37,860 nt of DNA, taken from a virus. This document shows positions 12,064 to 31,388 of the stretch, one piece after another (positions within the stretch are counted from its first letter, which is position 1; every line of letters starts with the position of its first letter). Where the stretch lies: positions 1-37,860 of the IMG/VR virus record IMGVR_UViG_3300008266_000180. The stretch is one strand, 5' to 3'. The notes under the pieces are model-generated. The model did no database searches, was not told the DNA's origin, and saw nothing but the letters and a program-made list of their open reading frames with translations. A program made the translations under genes and the position numbers.

Positions 12064-13137
12064 TTAGTCTGCTGTGTCGTTCCTGCTGGCTTCGACCTTC
12101 TCAGCAAGGGCCATCTTCGCCTTCGGGCTAAGGTGGGCGTATCGCTTGGTTGTGCCGGCGTCCTTGTGCCCTAGAGCCTCGCCGATCTCGCTCAGGCCGT
12201 AACCGGCGGCAATGGCATCCGAGGCGAAGCTGTGGCGCAGGTCGTGAAGCCGGAAGTCATCGAGCCCGGCCCGCTCGCGTATCAGATCCCAGACGCCGTT
12301 CGGGTAGCTGGCAAACCCGACCAGCCAGCCCCGGCGAGGGTCGATCCCCTCGACCACGGCTTGAGCGGCTTTGGAGAACGCGATGGTCTTCGGGTTGCCG
12401 TCCGCGTCGGTCTTGTGCTGCTTCAGGGTGAGCAGGCCATCCTTGTACCATGAGCGCTTGGCCTTGGCGATTTCGGAGTGCCTGGCGCCGGTCAGGTAGA
12501 GTAGCCGGATCATGGCGACGGCGTGGGGGAATTGGCCTTCCGTCTCGTCCAGCGCCGCAAGGAAGCGCTCGCGCTCCTCCGGGGAGAGGTAGCGCTGCCG
12601 GGCCGTCTCCTTGTAGGGCTTCACCGACGTGATCGAAGGATGCTCCCCGAACGACCACATGGCGCTGACAAGGGCGACAAGCCGGTTGAAGGCGATGGGG
12701 GTCTTTGCCATCTCGCGGCGCAGGGTGAGCAAATCGTGGCGCGTCACCTCGGCAACCTTCTTCGTTCCCCACCTGGGTTTGATGACGCGGCGGATGCGGC
12801 CTTCGTCGTGGCGCAGGGAGCGCTTGGACTGGTGTTCGGCAACGTACCTGTCAGCCAGCGCCGCGACCGTCTCAGAGGCCCGTAGAGCCTTGTTCTCCTG
12901 CGAGGGGTCGCCACCCTTCGCCACCTCGACCAGCCAGCCCCTAGCGACCTCTCTGGCCTGCTGGATGGTGAAGGCGGGGAAGTCGCCCACCTTTGGCCGG
13001 CGGCGCTGACCGGCCTTGGTCCTATAATACAAAAAGAACGCCTTGCGTCCACCGCGCACGCGCAGCTCAAGGCCGCGAACCTCGTCATCCTTAAGGAGGT
13101 CGCCTTCGGTCGCGGTTTTGATCTGGGTGAGGTTCAT
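12064..13137 (-). CDS. int: Tyrosine-recombinase integrase
   Basis: 357 aa. An N-terminal arm-binding region resembling P4-type integrases (residues 20-70, LELRVRGGRKAFFLYYRTKAG) is followed by a core-binding domain (~95-170). The catalytic domain has all active-site residues: R219 in LTGARHSEI, K242, H298-x-x-R301 in LHDLRHSFAS, H324 in LGHKDAGTT and nucleophile Y333 in KRYAHLS. Family role: site-specific integration and, with an excisionase, excision of the prophage. The start overlaps the end of the DpdA-like gene by 4 bp, so it is the third gene of an operon. No att core could be identified. Confidence 0.92.
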   Translation of the reverse strand: MNLTQIKTATEGDLLKDDEVRGLELRVRGGRKAFFLYYRTKAGQRRRPKVGDFPAFTIQQAREVARGWLVEVAKGGDPSQENKALRASETVAALADRYVAEHQSKRSLRHDEGRIRRVIKPRWGTKKVAEVTRHDLLTLRREMAKTPIAFNRLVALVSAMWSFGEHPSITSVKPYKETARQRYLSPEERERFLAALDETEGQFPHAVAMIRLLYLTGARHSEIAKAKRSWYKDGLLTLKQHKTDADGNPKTIAFSKAAQAVVEGIDPRRGWLVGFASYPNGVWDLIRERAGLDDFRLHDLRHSFASDAIAAGYGLSEIGEALGHKDAGTTKRYAHLSPKAKMALAEKVEASRNDTAD

Positions 13138-13829
13138 GCGGCGGCGCTCTCGTAAAGGTCAGGCTGAGACGCGCGGGGGCTCCAGCGGGGCGGACATTGC
13201 GCCGCATCCCATCGGTCGGCCATGGCGCGGGCCGTATTTTGCGGGCGATTGTGGTTCTGGGCAACGTCGGTGCTGTCCACGGACGCGAAGGGCCACTCAC
13301 GCCCGCTGAGCTGCATCCCGCGAAGCATGTGAACGTTCGGGGTCCGATGGCGCTTCGCCAGTTCGTCCCAAACCCGGTCCATGCGGGCGACCCAGGCATC
13401 CGACAGGATCACGGCATACTCAGCCGTCGAGCCGAAGCAGATGCGCGGGTGTTCGTCGGCAAGGCGAAGGGCGCGGCTAATCGGCTCGTCAAGGTGCCAG
13501 ACTGGAGCGCCCTTGTCGCCGAAGGGCCATTCGCGGATGAGGGCGTCTTGCTCCTGCGTCCCGGCGTCGATCACGTCGGGGATGACCGCCCATGTGGTCG
13601 GGTAGTGAAGCCACTCGTCAGCCCAAGTGTAATAGGCGGGCCAGTCTGTTTCCTTGCCCGACTTCCACTTGCTGAAAGCCCCGTTGTCCAGCATGACCGA
13701 CGATCCGATCTCATGGGCAAGGCGCACTTGATCGGGCCGCATGTGGGACACGCAGAAGCACTTGCCGGCCAGCGTGAGCATGACCGCCGTAGGCGTGATC
13801 GGGGTTCCGTGGTAGTGGATCACCCGCAC
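13134..13829 (-). CDS. TGT/DpdA-like protein (putative deazapurine DNA transglycosylase)
   Basis: 231 aa from GTG at 13829 (AAGG 7 nt upstream); a second GTG at 13823 gives a GTGA overlap with the upstream stop. Conserved blocks at the ends of successive predicted beta strands suggest a TIM barrel: MLDNGAF (D48), AVIPDVID (83-88), VWHLDE (111-115), CFGSTAEY (132), HMLRGM (167) and ASVDSTDVAQN (184-191). This order resembles tRNA-guanine transglycosylases (DSGGF block and later catalytic Asp) and phage DpdA proteins, which insert 7-deazaguanines into DNA. The adjacent QueD-like gene supports it. C-terminal ~35 residues are Pro/Arg-rich. Assignment is by motif only; another barrel enzyme is possible. 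Confidence 0.55.
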   Translation of the reverse strand: MRVIHYHGTPITPTAVMLTLAGKCFCVSHMRPDQVRLAHEIGSSVMLDNGAFSKWKSGKETDWPAYYTWADEWLHYPTTWAVIPDVIDAGTQEQDALIREWPFGDKGAPVWHLDEPISRALRLADEHPRICFGSTAEYAVILSDAWVARMDRVWDELAKRHRTPNVHMLRGMQLSGREWPFASVDSTDVAQNHNRPQNTARAMADRWDAAQCPPRWSPRASQPDLYESAAA

Positions 13830-17881: not shown

Positions 17882-18063
17882 TGCCCCTGGCCCCCATCAA
17901 GAGAGGGAGAGGCCTTGGAGATGGCGAAGGCGAGCTGCCGATAGACAACAAAAGCTTCGCTGCTCGACCAGCAATCGCTGTCGTCAATGTCGTCCTGATC
18001 GACGGGTCCGAAGTAGGACCGAAGGAAGATGGCCGCAGCCGCGTTAGCCGTAAGCGCGCTCAT
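17878..18063 (-). CDS. Hypothetical protein, 61 aa
   Basis: ATG at 18063 overlaps the upstream stop (TGATG); a GTG one codon earlier is also possible. Product starts with an Ala-rich helix (LTANAAAAIFLRSYFGP), then an acidic stretch DQDDIDDSDCW and a helix. No family recognised. Confidence 0.55.
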   Translation of the reverse strand: MSALTANAAAAIFLRSYFGPVDQDDIDDSDCWSSSEAFVVYRQLAFAISKASPSLDGGQGQ

Positions 18064-18356
18064 CACAGCGCCCCCATCAGTTCGTCGTCGCGGCGTTGTT
18101 CGCGCGCTTCGTCCGCACGGTCGGCAGCTTCGGTGTCTTCCTCAGCCGCAGCTTCCGCGATCTGATCAGCGAAGGCCTTGCAGATGGCGGCGTCGAGTTC
18201 GGCGCTGATCTGCGGCTCGGTGGCGAGAAGGGTCGTCAGCCATTTGCGGTCGCGATAGCCGGTGATGGCGTCGATGCGCTGGACGATGGCGTGACCGTCG
18301 CTATCGACCTCACACGTGACTTCGATTTCGAAGCTGAACTTGGCGGCGGTGGCCAT
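18063..18356 (-). CDS. First gene of the leftward early operon, hypothetical, 97 aa
   Basis: Starts at ATG 18356 with AGAGG about 9 nt upstream. N-terminal beta strand (KFSFEIEVTCEVDSDGHAIVQRIDAITG) and a long C-terminal acidic helix (FADQIAEAAAEEDTEAADRADEAREQ). It is the first gene after the left operator cassette, so it should be among the earliest expressed. Not recognised; position corresponds to anti-host genes in other phages, but nothing in the sequence shows this. Confidence 0.65.
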   Translation of the reverse strand: MATAAKFSFEIEVTCEVDSDGHAIVQRIDAITGYRDRKWLTTLLATEPQISAELDAAICKAFADQIAEAAAEEDTEAADRADEAREQRRDDELMGAL

Positions 18357-18382: not shown

Positions 18383-18432
18383 ACGTTACCAGCAGTTACG
18401 CAGAGTGCAAGAGAAAAGTTACGCGCTGTTAC
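18383..18432 (-). promoter_or_regulatory. Left early promoter/operator cassette (PL-like)
   Basis: Read on the minus strand: GTAAC-N5-GTAAC (18432-18418), 7 nt, TTGCAC (-35-like, 18410-18405), 5 nt, GTAAC-N5-GTAAC (18399-18385) running into GTG. The half-sites in each pair are 10 bp apart (one helical turn), and the pairs are about three turns apart. The second pair covers the spacer and the -10 (TAACGT, 18388-18383), so a bound repressor would block polymerase. The distal half-site overlaps the stop codon of the repressor gene. Confidence 0.65.
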
Positions 18433-18809
18433 GCACTTTTTAGCAGGCGGACGATGGCCGCGACCATATCCCTCTGGCGTTCCTCGGGCGCATCACGAAG
18501 CGCGGCGACGAGCTGCCACTCTTCGTCCGACAGTTCCAGATTGTCGGGCTCGCCCCTGCCGGTGAGCAGCCATTGCCATGAGACGCCGAACTTCCGGGCA
18601 AACAGGATCGCGCGCTGATGGCTTAAAGGCGTGTGTTTCGATGAGCCTGGTGGGCGCTCATAGGCGGTGTAGGTGTGTTCCTTAAGCCCGACGCTCTCGG
18701 CTGCGGCCTTCCCGCTTGGCTTGATGTTCTTCGCCAGTTGCCACCGCGCCCGCGCCCAAGTCAGGCGTTCGTGCGGCTCTTTCAGGTCGGTCCAGTCGCG
18801 AGGTTCCAT
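18429..18809 (-). CDS. CI-like repressor (XRE-type HTH), short form
   Basis: 126 aa from ATG at 18809. The HTH region (about residues 13-80) is RLTWARARWQ...GKAAAESVGLKEHTYTAYERP, followed by the SWQWLLTGRGEP motif frequent in phage repressors. A C-terminal helix (DEEWQLVAALRDAPEERQRDMVAAIVRLL) may mediate dimerisation. There is no S24/LexA-type peptidase domain, so RecA-dependent self-cleavage is not expected. The frame is open further upstream, but that part covers operators and the divergent promoter. It lies between two operator cassettes. Confidence 0.8.
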   Translation of the reverse strand: MEPRDWTDLKEPHERLTWARARWQLAKNIKPSGKAAAESVGLKEHTYTAYERPPGSSKHTPLSHQRAILFARKFGVSWQWLLTGRGEPDNLELSDEEWQLVAALRDAPEERQRDMVAAIVRLLKSA

Positions 18810-18834
18810 AGCTATCAAGGCTATCGACCCAGCC

Positions 18835-18886
18835 GTAACCATGGGTAATTTCGATCTTGCAGGCGCGCCGTAACTAGTGGTAACGT
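18835..18886 (+). promoter_or_regulatory. Right early promoter/operator cassette (PR-like)
   Basis: GTAAC-N5-GTAAT (18835-18849), 7 nt, TTGCAG (-35-like, 18857-18862), 7 nt, GTAAC-N5-GTAAC (18870-18884) running into GTG. Same order and spacing as the left cassette but on the other strand. A -10 at 18881-18886 (TAACGT) would start transcription close to the Cro-like ATG at 18895. Confidence 0.65.
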
Positions 18887-18894
18887 GCGTCGTC

Positions 18895-19089
18895 ATGAAG
18901 CACGCAGAGATTATCACCGCCAAGGGCACAGCCGCGATTGCGGAGAAGGTCGGTGTTCCGCCGGCTCACGTCCGCGTCTGGAAGCTGAGGGGCATTCCCC
19001 GCTCTCGCTTTGCTGACGTTCTCGCCGCCTTCCCCGATGTGACGCTGGACGCGCTGAAACAAGGCGCCCCGGCCCGTCGAGCGGCCTGA
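18895..19089 (+). CDS. Cro-like DNA-binding protein
   Basis: 64 aa from ATG at 18895; an upstream GTG at 18877 lies inside the operator. HTH: GTAAIAEKVGVPPAHVRVWKLRGIPRSRFADVL, similar to Cro/YdaS-type proteins. No Shine-Dalgarno is present, and the predicted start of transcription is within 2 nt of the ATG, so the message may be leaderless. First gene of the rightward early operon, opposite the repressor, as expected for Cro. Confidence 0.75.
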   Translation: MKHAEIITAKGTAAIAEKVGVPPAHVRVWKLRGIPRSRFADVLAAFPDVTLDALKQGAPARRAA

Positions 19090-19327: not shown

Positions 19328-20248
19328 ATGACTGCAATTCCGCTCTTTAGCAAGGTACAGGCGAGCATCGCCAGCTCGCCGGTTTCGGTGGCGCATCAGC
19401 TTCAACAATGGCTGGCGCGGGGGCGTGGCGAGGTCTTCACCGTTACGACCACGCTGACGCCGGAACTGGCGCGGCTGCTCCTGGCGGCCAACGAAGATAA
19501 CCGCACGGTTCGGCTCACCACCCGGGGAACGCGCGGGGTTTCTGCCTATGCCGCGATGATGCGGCGGGGCGAGTGGATGCTGAACGGCTCGACCCTGGTC
19601 GTGGCTTCGAACGGCCAACTCAACGACGGGCAACACCGTTGCCTCGCCTGCATCGAAGCGGATGTAGCCGTCCCTGTTCAAATCGCCTTCGGCGTTGAAC
19701 GCGACACCCGTTGCACCCTGGATCAAGGCGCGGCCCGGTCTCCCGGTGACGTGCTCAAGCTGATTGAACCCAGCCTAACCGACGCGAACGTCTTGGCGAC
19801 CTACCTTCAGTTTCGCTTCAGCCTCGCCGCCGGGCGGAACTTCTCGTTTCAGACGACCCCCGACGAAATCCGCGACGCCTTCCAGATGTACCCGGACGGC
19901 AAGGAACACATCGCCGCCGTTCAAGCCTACGCCCGGCGGATGCGTCTGTCGGTTGGCTATATCGCCGGGGCGCACGGCCTCTGTGCAGAAGCGAACCCCA
20001 CGAAGGCCAAGGCGTTCATCGAAGCGGTGTCAACCGGCGTTGGCATCCCCAGCACGTCGTCGCCGGTTGCGCGGCTGCGTGACCTGTACGAGCGCAACAA
20101 GGGAGCGCGCGGCAACGCCCTGTTCCGCGACGCCCAAGCCGCCCTCTACGTCAAGGCCTTCAACAACTTTGCCAAGGGCAAGTTGGGCGCCCTGACCTAC
20201 CGCCCCAAGGGCGCGCTTGAGGCTTTCCCCGTGGCGGTGCGCGGATGA
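19328..20248 (+). CDS. DGQHR/ParB-nuclease-like phage protein
   Basis: 306 aa. The block NGQLNDGQHRCLACIEADVAVPVQIAFGVE (about residues 96-125), preceded by AAMMRRGEWMLNG, is the signature of a phage family related to the ParB/Srx nucleotide-binding fold (G-x-x-x-DGQHR). The rest is helical. Exact function is unknown; relatives occur in early operons. AAGGA lies about 11 nt before the ATG, and the end overlaps the next gene by 4 bp. Confidence 0.7.
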   Translation: MTAIPLFSKVQASIASSPVSVAHQLQQWLARGRGEVFTVTTTLTPELARLLLAANEDNRTVRLTTRGTRGVSAYAAMMRRGEWMLNGSTLVVASNGQLNDGQHRCLACIEADVAVPVQIAFGVERDTRCTLDQGAARSPGDVLKLIEPSLTDANVLATYLQFRFSLAAGRNFSFQTTPDEIRDAFQMYPDGKEHIAAVQAYARRMRLSVGYIAGAHGLCAEANPTKAKAFIEAVSTGVGIPSTSSPVARLRDLYERNKGARGNALFRDAQAALYVKAFNNFAKGKLGALTYRPKGALEAFPVAVRG

Positions 20249-21027
20249 AAACCGAAAGCATCCTTATTCATGACATCCAGTGCGGAGACCGCCTTCGGGC
20301 GGTCGATGCCGGCAGGGTCGCCTCGCTTGCCGCGTCCATCGCGGAGATCGGCCTGCGAACCCCCGTCACGGTCACTGTCGGCAACGACGCAGACGGCGAG
20401 GTCATCTACCGCCTTGTTGCCGGCGCTCACCGGCTGGAAGCCATGAAGGCGAGCGGCCAGGACTACATCGACGCCTTCGTGATGGACGGCGACGAAGACG
20501 ACGCCGCCCTGTGGGAGATAGACGAGAACTTCGCGCGGGCTGAGCTGTCGGACGCGCAACGGGCGGAACACCACGTTCGCCGCGAGGAAATCCTCAAGCG
20601 GAAGGGGCTGGTGTCGGCGGGGCCGGGTCAGCCGAAAAAGAATTCGGACAAATTGTCCGGATACTCTGCACAAGCCGCCGCTTCCCTTGGCGTCGATGAG
20701 CGCACCGTTCGGCGCGACCTTCGCCGGGGAAAGAACATCGCCCCCGAGATCATGGCGAAAGTCGCGGGCTCACGCCTCGACAAAGGCGTGGTGCTGGACG
20801 AGTTGGCCTCCACCCCCCGCGACCAGCAACCCGCCAAGCTGTCAGAGATCGCCAGCCGGGGCCTCGTCAGCCGGGTCCGTACCGCCGACGACCCCCTGAA
20901 CGATCTGGAGGCCACGGAGCGCCAGTTGGCCGCCCTCATGGCCGCTTGGAACCGGGCAGGGGCCGACGCCCGCCGCAAGTTCCTCGACCGCGTTGACACG
21001 CCCGTCTTTGACAGGGGGGCCGCATGA
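20245..21027 (+). CDS. ParB-like protein (ParB N-terminal domain + HTH)
   Basis: 260 aa. N-terminal ParB domain: RVASLAASIAEIGLRTPVTVTV, then the GAHRLEAMKASG motif (G-x-x-R, about residue 70) that in ParB binds nucleotide. Then IDENFARAELSDAQRAEH and a HTH (SAQAAASLGVDERTVRRDLRRG). No ParA is encoded, so a partition role is unlikely; a regulator or a phage ParB/Noc-like DNA-binding protein fits better (inference). Confidence 0.75.
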   Translation: MKTESILIHDIQCGDRLRAVDAGRVASLAASIAEIGLRTPVTVTVGNDADGEVIYRLVAGAHRLEAMKASGQDYIDAFVMDGDEDDAALWEIDENFARAELSDAQRAEHHVRREEILKRKGLVSAGPGQPKKNSDKLSGYSAQAAASLGVDERTVRRDLRRGKNIAPEIMAKVAGSRLDKGVVLDELASTPRDQQPAKLSEIASRGLVSRVRTADDPLNDLEATERQLAALMAAWNRAGADARRKFLDRVDTPVFDRGAA

Positions 21028-30287: not shown

Positions 30288-31388
30288 ATGGCTGAAGTCG
30301 CCCTGGCCTCCGCTTCTGAGAAGCAGGTCTTCCTTTCCAACTACTTCGCTGAGTACGTCCGCGAGAGCGGCTACATGCCCTACATGGGCCGTGGCGAAAA
30401 CAAGATCATCGTCGCCAAGTACGAGCTGCAAGAAGAGAGCGGCAAGACGATCAACATTCCGCTGATCCTGCGCCTCACCAGCGACGGCGTCACCGGCTCG
30501 ACCGTTCTGGATGGTCGTGAAGAGGAAATCGGCAACTACAACTGCGCTCTGTCCGTCGATTGGCGCCGGAACGCGGTTCGCGTGCCGAAGTCCACCAGCT
30601 ACAAGACCGAGATCGACCTCTTCGGCGCCGCCAAGCCGCTCCTGCGGAACTGGGAAGCCGAGAAGCTCCGTGACGACATCACCACGGCGCTCCTGTCGGT
30701 CGTGACCACGGGTGACACCACCGTCACCATGTCGGCCTCCACCGCCGCCAACCGCAACGCCTACAACGCCGCCAACAGCGACCGTCTGCTCTTCGGGGCG
30801 ACCAAGTCGAACTACTCGGCGACCTGGGCGACGGCTGTCGGCAACATCGACACCACGAACGACAAGGTGACCTCTGCCTCCATGTCGCTGATGAAGCGCA
30901 TCGCCAAGCAGGCTGACCCGCACATCCGTCCCTACAAGACGGAGAACGGTCGTGAGTTCTTCGTGGCCTTCCACGGCTCGCGGACCTTCCGCGATCTGAA
31001 GCTGGACAGCACCATCCTCACTGCCAACCGTGACGCGCGTCCGCGTGATGTCGAGAACAACCCCATCTTCCAGGACGGGGACATGATCTACGACGGCATC
31101 ATCCACCGTGAAGTTCCGGAGATCGACGACATCGCTTCGGGCGGCACCTACTCGATGGACGCCATCGGCAACTCGTCGGCTGACGTTCGCCCGGTGTTCC
31201 TCTGTGGCCTGCAATCGGTCGGCATCGCGTGGGGTCAGGAACCCACCATGCGGATGGATCTGACGAAGGACTACTCCTTCCGTCCGGGCGTCGCCATCGA
31301 GGAACTGCTGACCGTCAAGAAGCTCTGCTTCAACGGGCGTCAGCACGGCGTTGTCAGCGGCTTCTTTGCGGCCGCCGCAGACGCGTGA
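30288..31388 (+). CDS. Major capsid protein, N4gp56/DUF4043-type
   Basis: 366 aa, preceded by AGGA 8 nt upstream. N-terminus NYFAEYVRESGYMPYMGRGENKIIVAKYELQEESG, then INIPLILRLTSDGVTGSTVLDGREEEIGNYNCALSVDWRRNAVRV; the LTSDGVTGxxxLxGxEEExxxYN block is characteristic of the N4gp56 capsid family, with FGAAKPLLRNWEAEKLRDDI following. Forms the icosahedral shell. The partner portal and completion proteins look P22-type, giving a mosaic head. The stop is 2 bp from the stop of an antisense HNH gene. Confidence 0.75.
   Translation: MAEVALASASEKQVFLSNYFAEYVRESGYMPYMGRGENKIIVAKYELQEESGKTINIPLILRLTSDGVTGSTVLDGREEEIGNYNCALSVDWRRNAVRVPKSTSYKTEIDLFGAAKPLLRNWEAEKLRDDITTALLSVVTTGDTTVTMSASTAANRNAYNAANSDRLLFGATKSNYSATWATAVGNIDTTNDKVTSASMSLMKRIAKQADPHIRPYKTENGREFFVAFHGSRTFRDLKLDSTILTANRDARPRDVENNPIFQDGDMIYDGIIHREVPEIDDIASGGTYSMDAIGNSSADVRPVFLCGLQSVGIAWGQEPTMRMDLTKDYSFRPGVAIEELLTVKKLCFNGRQHGVVSGFFAAAADA

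Follow-up and report, generated by a model that had tools for sequence, protein, structure and literature searches.

The PaaR2/YdaS switch of CP-933P in E. coli O157:H7 is the closest known parallel to the locus described here. PaaR2 is the CI protein of that switch, YdaS is the Cro protein, and YdaT is the CII protein (PMC8630535). The repressor gene lies opposite a YdaS-type Cro gene, overlapping operators are found at PR and PL, and one transcript is leaderless (PMC8630535). The authors describe direct- and inverted-repeat readings that coexist, with a balance between them (PMC8630535). The RacR-YdaS/T module of the Rac prophage likewise has an HTH repressor beside a YdaS-type gene, with palindromic repeats in the intergenic region (PMC5700373). 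Genuine head-to-tail binding to direct repeats at early promoters is known for Apl of phage 186; the repeats by which Apl and other RDFs act on pR and pL are spaced by one helical turn (PMC7498355).

The window analyzed here is the whole of an IMG/VR virus record with a length of 37,860 bases. Its repressor locus is very probably a lambda-like immunity region with dyad operators at oL and oR, two early promoters, and a repressor/Cro switch. As in lambda (oL/pL-cI-oR/pR-cro), a CI-type HTH repressor gene is located between two outward early promoters, similar operators are shared by both promoters and overlap the -35 and -10 elements, cro heads the rightward operon, and the recombination genes and int are leftward. 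Unlike lambda, in which each promoter has three operators, the window has two per promoter, and several relatives carry a third; the sites are 15 bp in length with 5-bp half-sites, the repressor is short and without the C-terminal autocleavage domain, and the probable leaderless gene is cro instead of cI. The locus is assigned to the general lambda-like kind and not to lambda's three-operator variant; the type of switch is already known, and the window adds a further member. The operators of CP-933P differ from those of the window in being 18-bp palindromes of GTTTAGTAA, and its leaderless gene is paaR2, not ydaS (PMC8630535). The operator of RacR is GCCTAA/TTAGGC, and the accessible part of that report describes no second cassette (PMC5700373). 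The tandem runs, excisionase function, and att sites associated with Apl and other RDFs (PMC7498355) were not seen in the window.

Operator cassettes and early promoters

The composite pattern GTAAC-N5-GTAA(C/T)-N7-TTGCA(C/G)-N5/7-GTAAC-N5-GTAAC-GTG has exactly two matches in the window, and both point outwards from the gene for a 126-residue repressor (18429-18809, minus strand). The left cassette (18432-18382, minus strand) reads GTAAC AGCGC GTAAC TTTTCTC TTGCAC TCTGC GTAAC TGCTG GTAAC GTG. The right cassette (18835-18887, plus strand) reads GTAAC CATGG GTAAT TTCGATC TTGCAG GCGCGCC GTAAC TAGTG GTAAC GTG. Seven of the eight half-sites are GTAAC and the other is GTAAT. This layout of GTAAC pairs, TTGCA box, and GTG on either side of the repressor gene agrees base for base with that claimed in an earlier sequence-only reading. 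With at most one mismatch, GTAAC-N5-GTAAC occurs four times in the 37,860 bases, always within the two cassettes; the mean for dinucleotide shuffles is 0.32, and none of 100 shuffles reached four. One further match in the window, at 30702, was obtained with the looser pattern GTNAC-N5-GTNA(C/T). The four operator sites score 15.2-20.0 bits with a symmetrised family weight matrix, and no other site in the window exceeds 8.9 bits.

Read from the sequence, O1 in each cassette covers a putative -10 element (TAACGT) and O2 adjoins a putative -35 element (TTGCA). The left O1 operator GTAACTGCTGGTAAC (18385-18399, minus strand), which was assigned from the motif and the family matrix, overlaps the -10 element of the leftward promoter. 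The left O2 operator GTAACAGCGCGTAAC (18418-18432, minus strand) is found just upstream of the -35 element and contains the stop codon of the repressor gene. The TAA lies inside the outer left half-site, so the overlap noted in the sequence-only reading is present. On the other side, the right O2 operator GTAACCATGGGTAAT (18835-18849, plus strand) is upstream of the -35 element and was assigned from the motif and the family matrix, and the right O1 operator GTAACTAGTGGTAAC (18870-18884, plus strand) overlaps the -10 element of pR and has a homologous O1 in 30 loci.

For the leftward promoter pL, the candidate -35 element TTGCAC (18405-18410, minus strand) has its TTG at a nearly constant distance in relatives, and the -10 element TAACGT (18383-18388, minus strand) follows after 16 bp and fits the family pattern TAnnnT. 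For pR, the candidate -35 element is TTGCAG (18857-18862, plus strand), and nearly all relatives have TTG(C) here, followed by a spacer of 17-18 bp. The -10 element TAACGT of pR (18881-18886, plus strand) is separated from TTGCAG by 18 bp, and an ATG is found 8 nt further on. The spacer in relatives is mostly 17 bp, with 18 bp in most of the window's clade, and the -10 element of the relatives, TAnnnT, is located within the right half-site of O1. The O1 geometry AC-N5-GT appears 12-13 nt after the TTG of the -35 element in nearly all of the 30 loci. A sigma-70 scanner called no promoter in the window because TTGCA and TAACGT score below its E. coli consensus, and the promoters were assigned instead from conservation among relatives. 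In Caulobacter, TTG is typical of the -35 elements of RpoD promoters (PMC4287350).

The cro transcript of the window is probably leaderless because the first ATG lies so close after the -10 element across the relatives, at a distance of 6-9 nt in nearly all loci. Leaderless mRNAs are common in Caulobacter, where 375 have been mapped (PMC4117421). The conserved, probable lack of a cro leader is a minor prediction that can be tested.

Repressor, Cro-like protein, and gene order

The 126-residue protein was identified as a CI-type repressor with an XRE HTH domain from its translation, its AlphaFold2 model, Foldseek, and PHROG, which assigns the gene as a transcriptional repressor. The model (pLDDT 90) consists of the HTH domain and two C-terminal helices, and the recognition helix comprises residues 44-50 (EHTYTAY). 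The nearest folds in Foldseek are the N-terminal domain of lambda CI, P22 c2, and 434 Cro, with a weak best E-value of 0.03. No peptidase family of the S24 (LexA/CI autocleavage) type was found in the repressor with Pfam and NCBIfam. The repressors of the window's group are short relative to those of the distant loci L061, L062, L064, and L066, which have about 220-230 residues and are of the S24 type as judged by eye from a GxGDSM motif.

The cro-like gene (18895-19089, plus strand) codes for 64 residues with an HTH domain that profiles, an AlphaFold2 model (pLDDT 85), and Foldseek relate to carph-isopro and YdaS. The Foldseek matches are P22 c2, Xfaso1 Cro, N15 Cro, and YdaS of CP-933P, again with a weak best E-value (0.3). 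The profile scores fall below the curated cut-offs for NCBIfam carphisopro (25.5 versus 38 bits) and Pfam YdaS (13.5 versus 30 bits). Together with the similar predicted fold, these scores weakly suggest a relationship to the YdaS/carph-isopro proteins at a level beneath the family threshold. No match to named phages was obtained with tblastn for either the repressor or cro, and a search of the PDB by sequence gave nothing useful.

The leftward operon begins with a gene for 97 residues without a family assignment (18063-18356, minus strand) and continues with genes for an Erf-like annealing protein, a queuine tRNA-ribosyltransferase-like protein, and a tyrosine integrase. The queuine tRNA-ribosyltransferase-like gene beside the integrase (13134-13829, minus strand; phrog_887, E-value of 1.7e-44) may function in tRNA or DNA 7-deazaguanine modification. 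In the rightward direction, the cro-like gene is followed by ParB-like, RusA-like, replication initiation, HNH, terminase, and portal genes. The ParB-like gene (20245-21027, plus strand) appears early in this operon of a phage that also carries an integrase. Among 299 genomes of the family to which an uncultured Caulobacteraceae MAG belongs, 12 contain relatives of the portal protein, mostly 48-60% identical, and 8 contain relatives of the repressor. Based on these portal and repressor relatives, the host of this temperate phage is probably a member of the Caulobacteraceae.

Operators in related loci

Relatives were gathered by protein, by DNA pattern, and by cro to give more than 30 loci, which are denoted by L numbers. 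The DNA-pattern scan provided 31 contigs, and recognizable repressor relatives were found in L019 and L035 only; L035 was reached from the DNA pattern alone without use of the protein. When the relatives were searched for the half-site pairs, as the sequence-only reading had proposed, the cassettes were found to recur together with the genes in the closest relatives (L043, L044/L035, and L045), for which the repressors are 55-62% identical. The claim that operator cassettes lie over two divergent early promoters flanking the repressor gene is borne out by this comparison, from which the operator geometry, the promoter overlap, and the conservation of the sites are all read. The left O2 operator also overlaps the repressor stop codon in L005/L045, the position of the left O1 operator is common to L045, L047, L048, L051-L053, and L056-L058, and the right O2 operator is 35 bp ahead of O1 in L043-L045 as well. 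Locus L072 keeps the O1 and O2 operators, and no cro-like ORF was recognized after its promoter. Loci L064, L073, and L074 do not enter the operator statistics because an O1 comparable to the others could not be assigned in them.

O2 and O1 are spaced by 33-35 bp in the main group and by 25 bp in the outgroup, a difference of about one helical turn. The operator geometry is kept in L061, L062, and L066, with a spacing of 25 bp and not 33-35 bp. A third site, O3, is located 24-25 bp from O2 at the start of the repressor gene in L042, L043, L044, L051, L052, L054, and L060; none was recognizable when the family weight matrix was applied over the window. Cooperative contacts between operators and autoregulation are predicted.

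Three other features of the related loci were observed. An element of about 20 bp, TACGTCARAAACGGTCGC, is strongly conserved directly after the repressor stop codon and the sequence that follows it differs (L044, 2878-2905). This element is also found in L043, L046, L047, L048, L057, and L058, is absent from the window and L045, and may be a linker at a module boundary or a binding site. A gene that is HIRAN-like by eye (L035, 6772-7240, plus strand) forms an insertion that separates the leftward operators from the 3' end of the repressor gene, and these operators were carried along. The repressor of L073 is apparently fused to a second HTH domain, and the proximal operator and cro were not recognized in that locus.

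Symmetry of the operators and the proposed switch

The reverse complement of GTAAC is GTTAC, so that four of the five bases are identical and the center base alone differs. GTAAC-N5-GTAAC is a direct repeat and an 8/10 palindrome at once, and the 15-mers of the window are symmetric at positions 1/15, 2/14, 4/12, and 5/11, the one exception being position 15 of the GTAAT site. The window by itself is therefore ambiguous between a direct and an inverted reading. In related loci, the sites at the equivalent position are inverted and keep the 5-bp spacer: GTTAC-CGCCA-GTAAC (L047), ATTAC-TTTGA-GTAAC (L048), GATAC-TTTGA-GTATC (L050), GCTAC-GCAAT-GTAGC (L054), GGTAC-TATTG-GTACG (L055), ATTAC-TAATG-GTAAT (L068), and GCTAC-GTTTG-ATAGC (L063). 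The sites at the leftward promoter of L042 are also inverted (ATCAC-CGTTT-GTGAT and ATTAC-TATCT-GTAAT).

Positions 2 and 14 are Watson-Crick complementary in 28 of 30 O1 sites on the cro side (T-A in 17, C-G in 8, A-T in 2, and G-C in 1; the remainder are two T-G pairs). The background, from 992 AC-N5-GT matches in the same loci, is a complementary fraction of 0.29-0.30. Base 12 remains T while bases 2 and 14 change together as complements, and position 3/13 is T/A in 22 of the 24 O1 sites outside the window's clade, again compared with this background. Dyad matches number 127, compared with 109.4 when the right halves are shuffled among loci, and none of 20,000 shuffles reached 127, in a test that ignores the kinship of these related loci. 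Direct-repeat matches are no better than shuffled (83 observed and 84.8 shuffled). On the repressor tree, position 2 requires at least four changes, and the covariation amounts to about 4-5 independent base changes. The sites were partly chosen by eye and are recovered by a fixed rule. Loci fetched later through cro agree with the dyad (L083 and L085, ATTACTGCGAGTAAC; L086 and L087, GTAACGTGCTGTTAC). From the aligned loci, the putative operators are mirror-symmetric (dyad) sites in which substitutions are mirrored across the center. Near-palindromic GTNAC half-sites are a warning case, as they disguise inverted repeats as direct repeats and only relatives decide.

In the proposed switch, the 126-residue repressor, most likely as a dimer, would bind the 15-bp dyad operators, (G/A)TNAC-N5-GTNA(C/T), at O2 beside the -35 element and O1 over the -10 element of each early promoter. 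Repressor at oL would block leftward transcription of the recombination genes and the integrase, and repressor at oR would block rightward transcription of the probably leaderless cro and of the replication and packaging genes. Blocking both directions would keep the lysogenic state, and competition by the Cro-like protein for the same or overlapping sites would favor lysis. The direct-repeat look would reflect the center base, which is A in both halves in the window's clade, whereas relatives have T on the left and A on the right. The sites constitute a readable operator code for a thinly annotated repressor family of Caulobacter-type phages. With one architecture and half-sites of GTNAC, GCTAC, GATAC, GGTAC, or ATTAC, immunity groups may be predicted from sequence.

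The sequence-only reading had taken the half-sites as direct rather than inverted repeats, to which repressor monomers would bind head-to-tail one helical turn apart. The half-sites of the window's four operators do match at 19 of 20 positions as direct repeats and at 15 of 20 as inverted repeats, and the A of the left half is conserved at O1 and O2 across the nearest relatives. This reading was rejected because of the covariation at positions 2/14, with a constant T at base 12, and the inverted sites found with the same spacer in relatives and within the clade itself; direct pairing is at the shuffled level, and the predicted repressor fold is of the CI/Cro type. Solved operator complexes of CI/Cro-type proteins are dyads. 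True direct repeats are thus very unlikely here.

Two other readings assign the operators to a different protein. It is scarcely credible that an excisionase-type protein (Cox/Apl/Xis), and not the repressor, spreads head-to-tail along tandem GTAAC repeats, even though pR and pL of phage 186 are repressed by Apl via direct repeats 10-11 bp apart (PMC7498355). RDF arrays are several contiguous repeats that are also present at att, but the pairs in the window stand alone, 33-35 bp from each other, and the GTAAC pair has no other strong copy near int or elsewhere. The Cro-like protein has a predicted Cro/YdaS fold, and the operators persist in L072. The RDF/Apl model was rejected on the absence of tandem arrays. 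It is highly improbable, too, that the operators serve mainly the Cro-like protein while the 126-residue repressor uses other sites. O1 is beside cro and conserved along with it, and the corresponding region of CP-933P is bound by YdaS as well as by PaaR2 (PMC8630535), but cassettes flank the repressor gene on both sides and one overlaps its stop codon. The type of repressor loosely tracks the operator, with His at position 2 of the recognition helix (H45) in the GTAAC clade, a pattern that is broken by L072, which itself retains O1 and O2 without a recognized cro. Because of L072, His45 is not put forward as a correlate of GTAAC.

The center of the left half-site is A in the clade formed by the window and L043-L046. 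In the repressor tree this clade is sister to a clade with inverted sites, and the outgroup is also inverted; the direct look of the clade's operators is therefore probably derived. The left-half A is nearly constant at both O1 and O2 in the window and the relatives nearest to it, and its constancy at O2, where no -10 element demands it, is left unexplained by a purely symmetric protein. A CI-type dimer in this clade that reads its half-sites unequally is unlikely; such a dimer would have shifted from a symmetric to a direct-repeat-like center base (GTAAC/GTAAC), possibly via H45, with the spacer and dimer geometry unchanged. If true, each operator would acquire a direction relative to its promoter. 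Inverted sites are also found in the window's clade or with H45-type repressors like that of the window (O3 of L043, GTAACTAGAGGTTAC; left O1 of L035, GTAACTGTGCGTTAC; O3 of L056, GTTACAACAAGTAAC; O1 and O3 of L086, GTAACGTGCTGTTAC and GTTACAAGAAGTAAC). Hence the center base can take either orientation.
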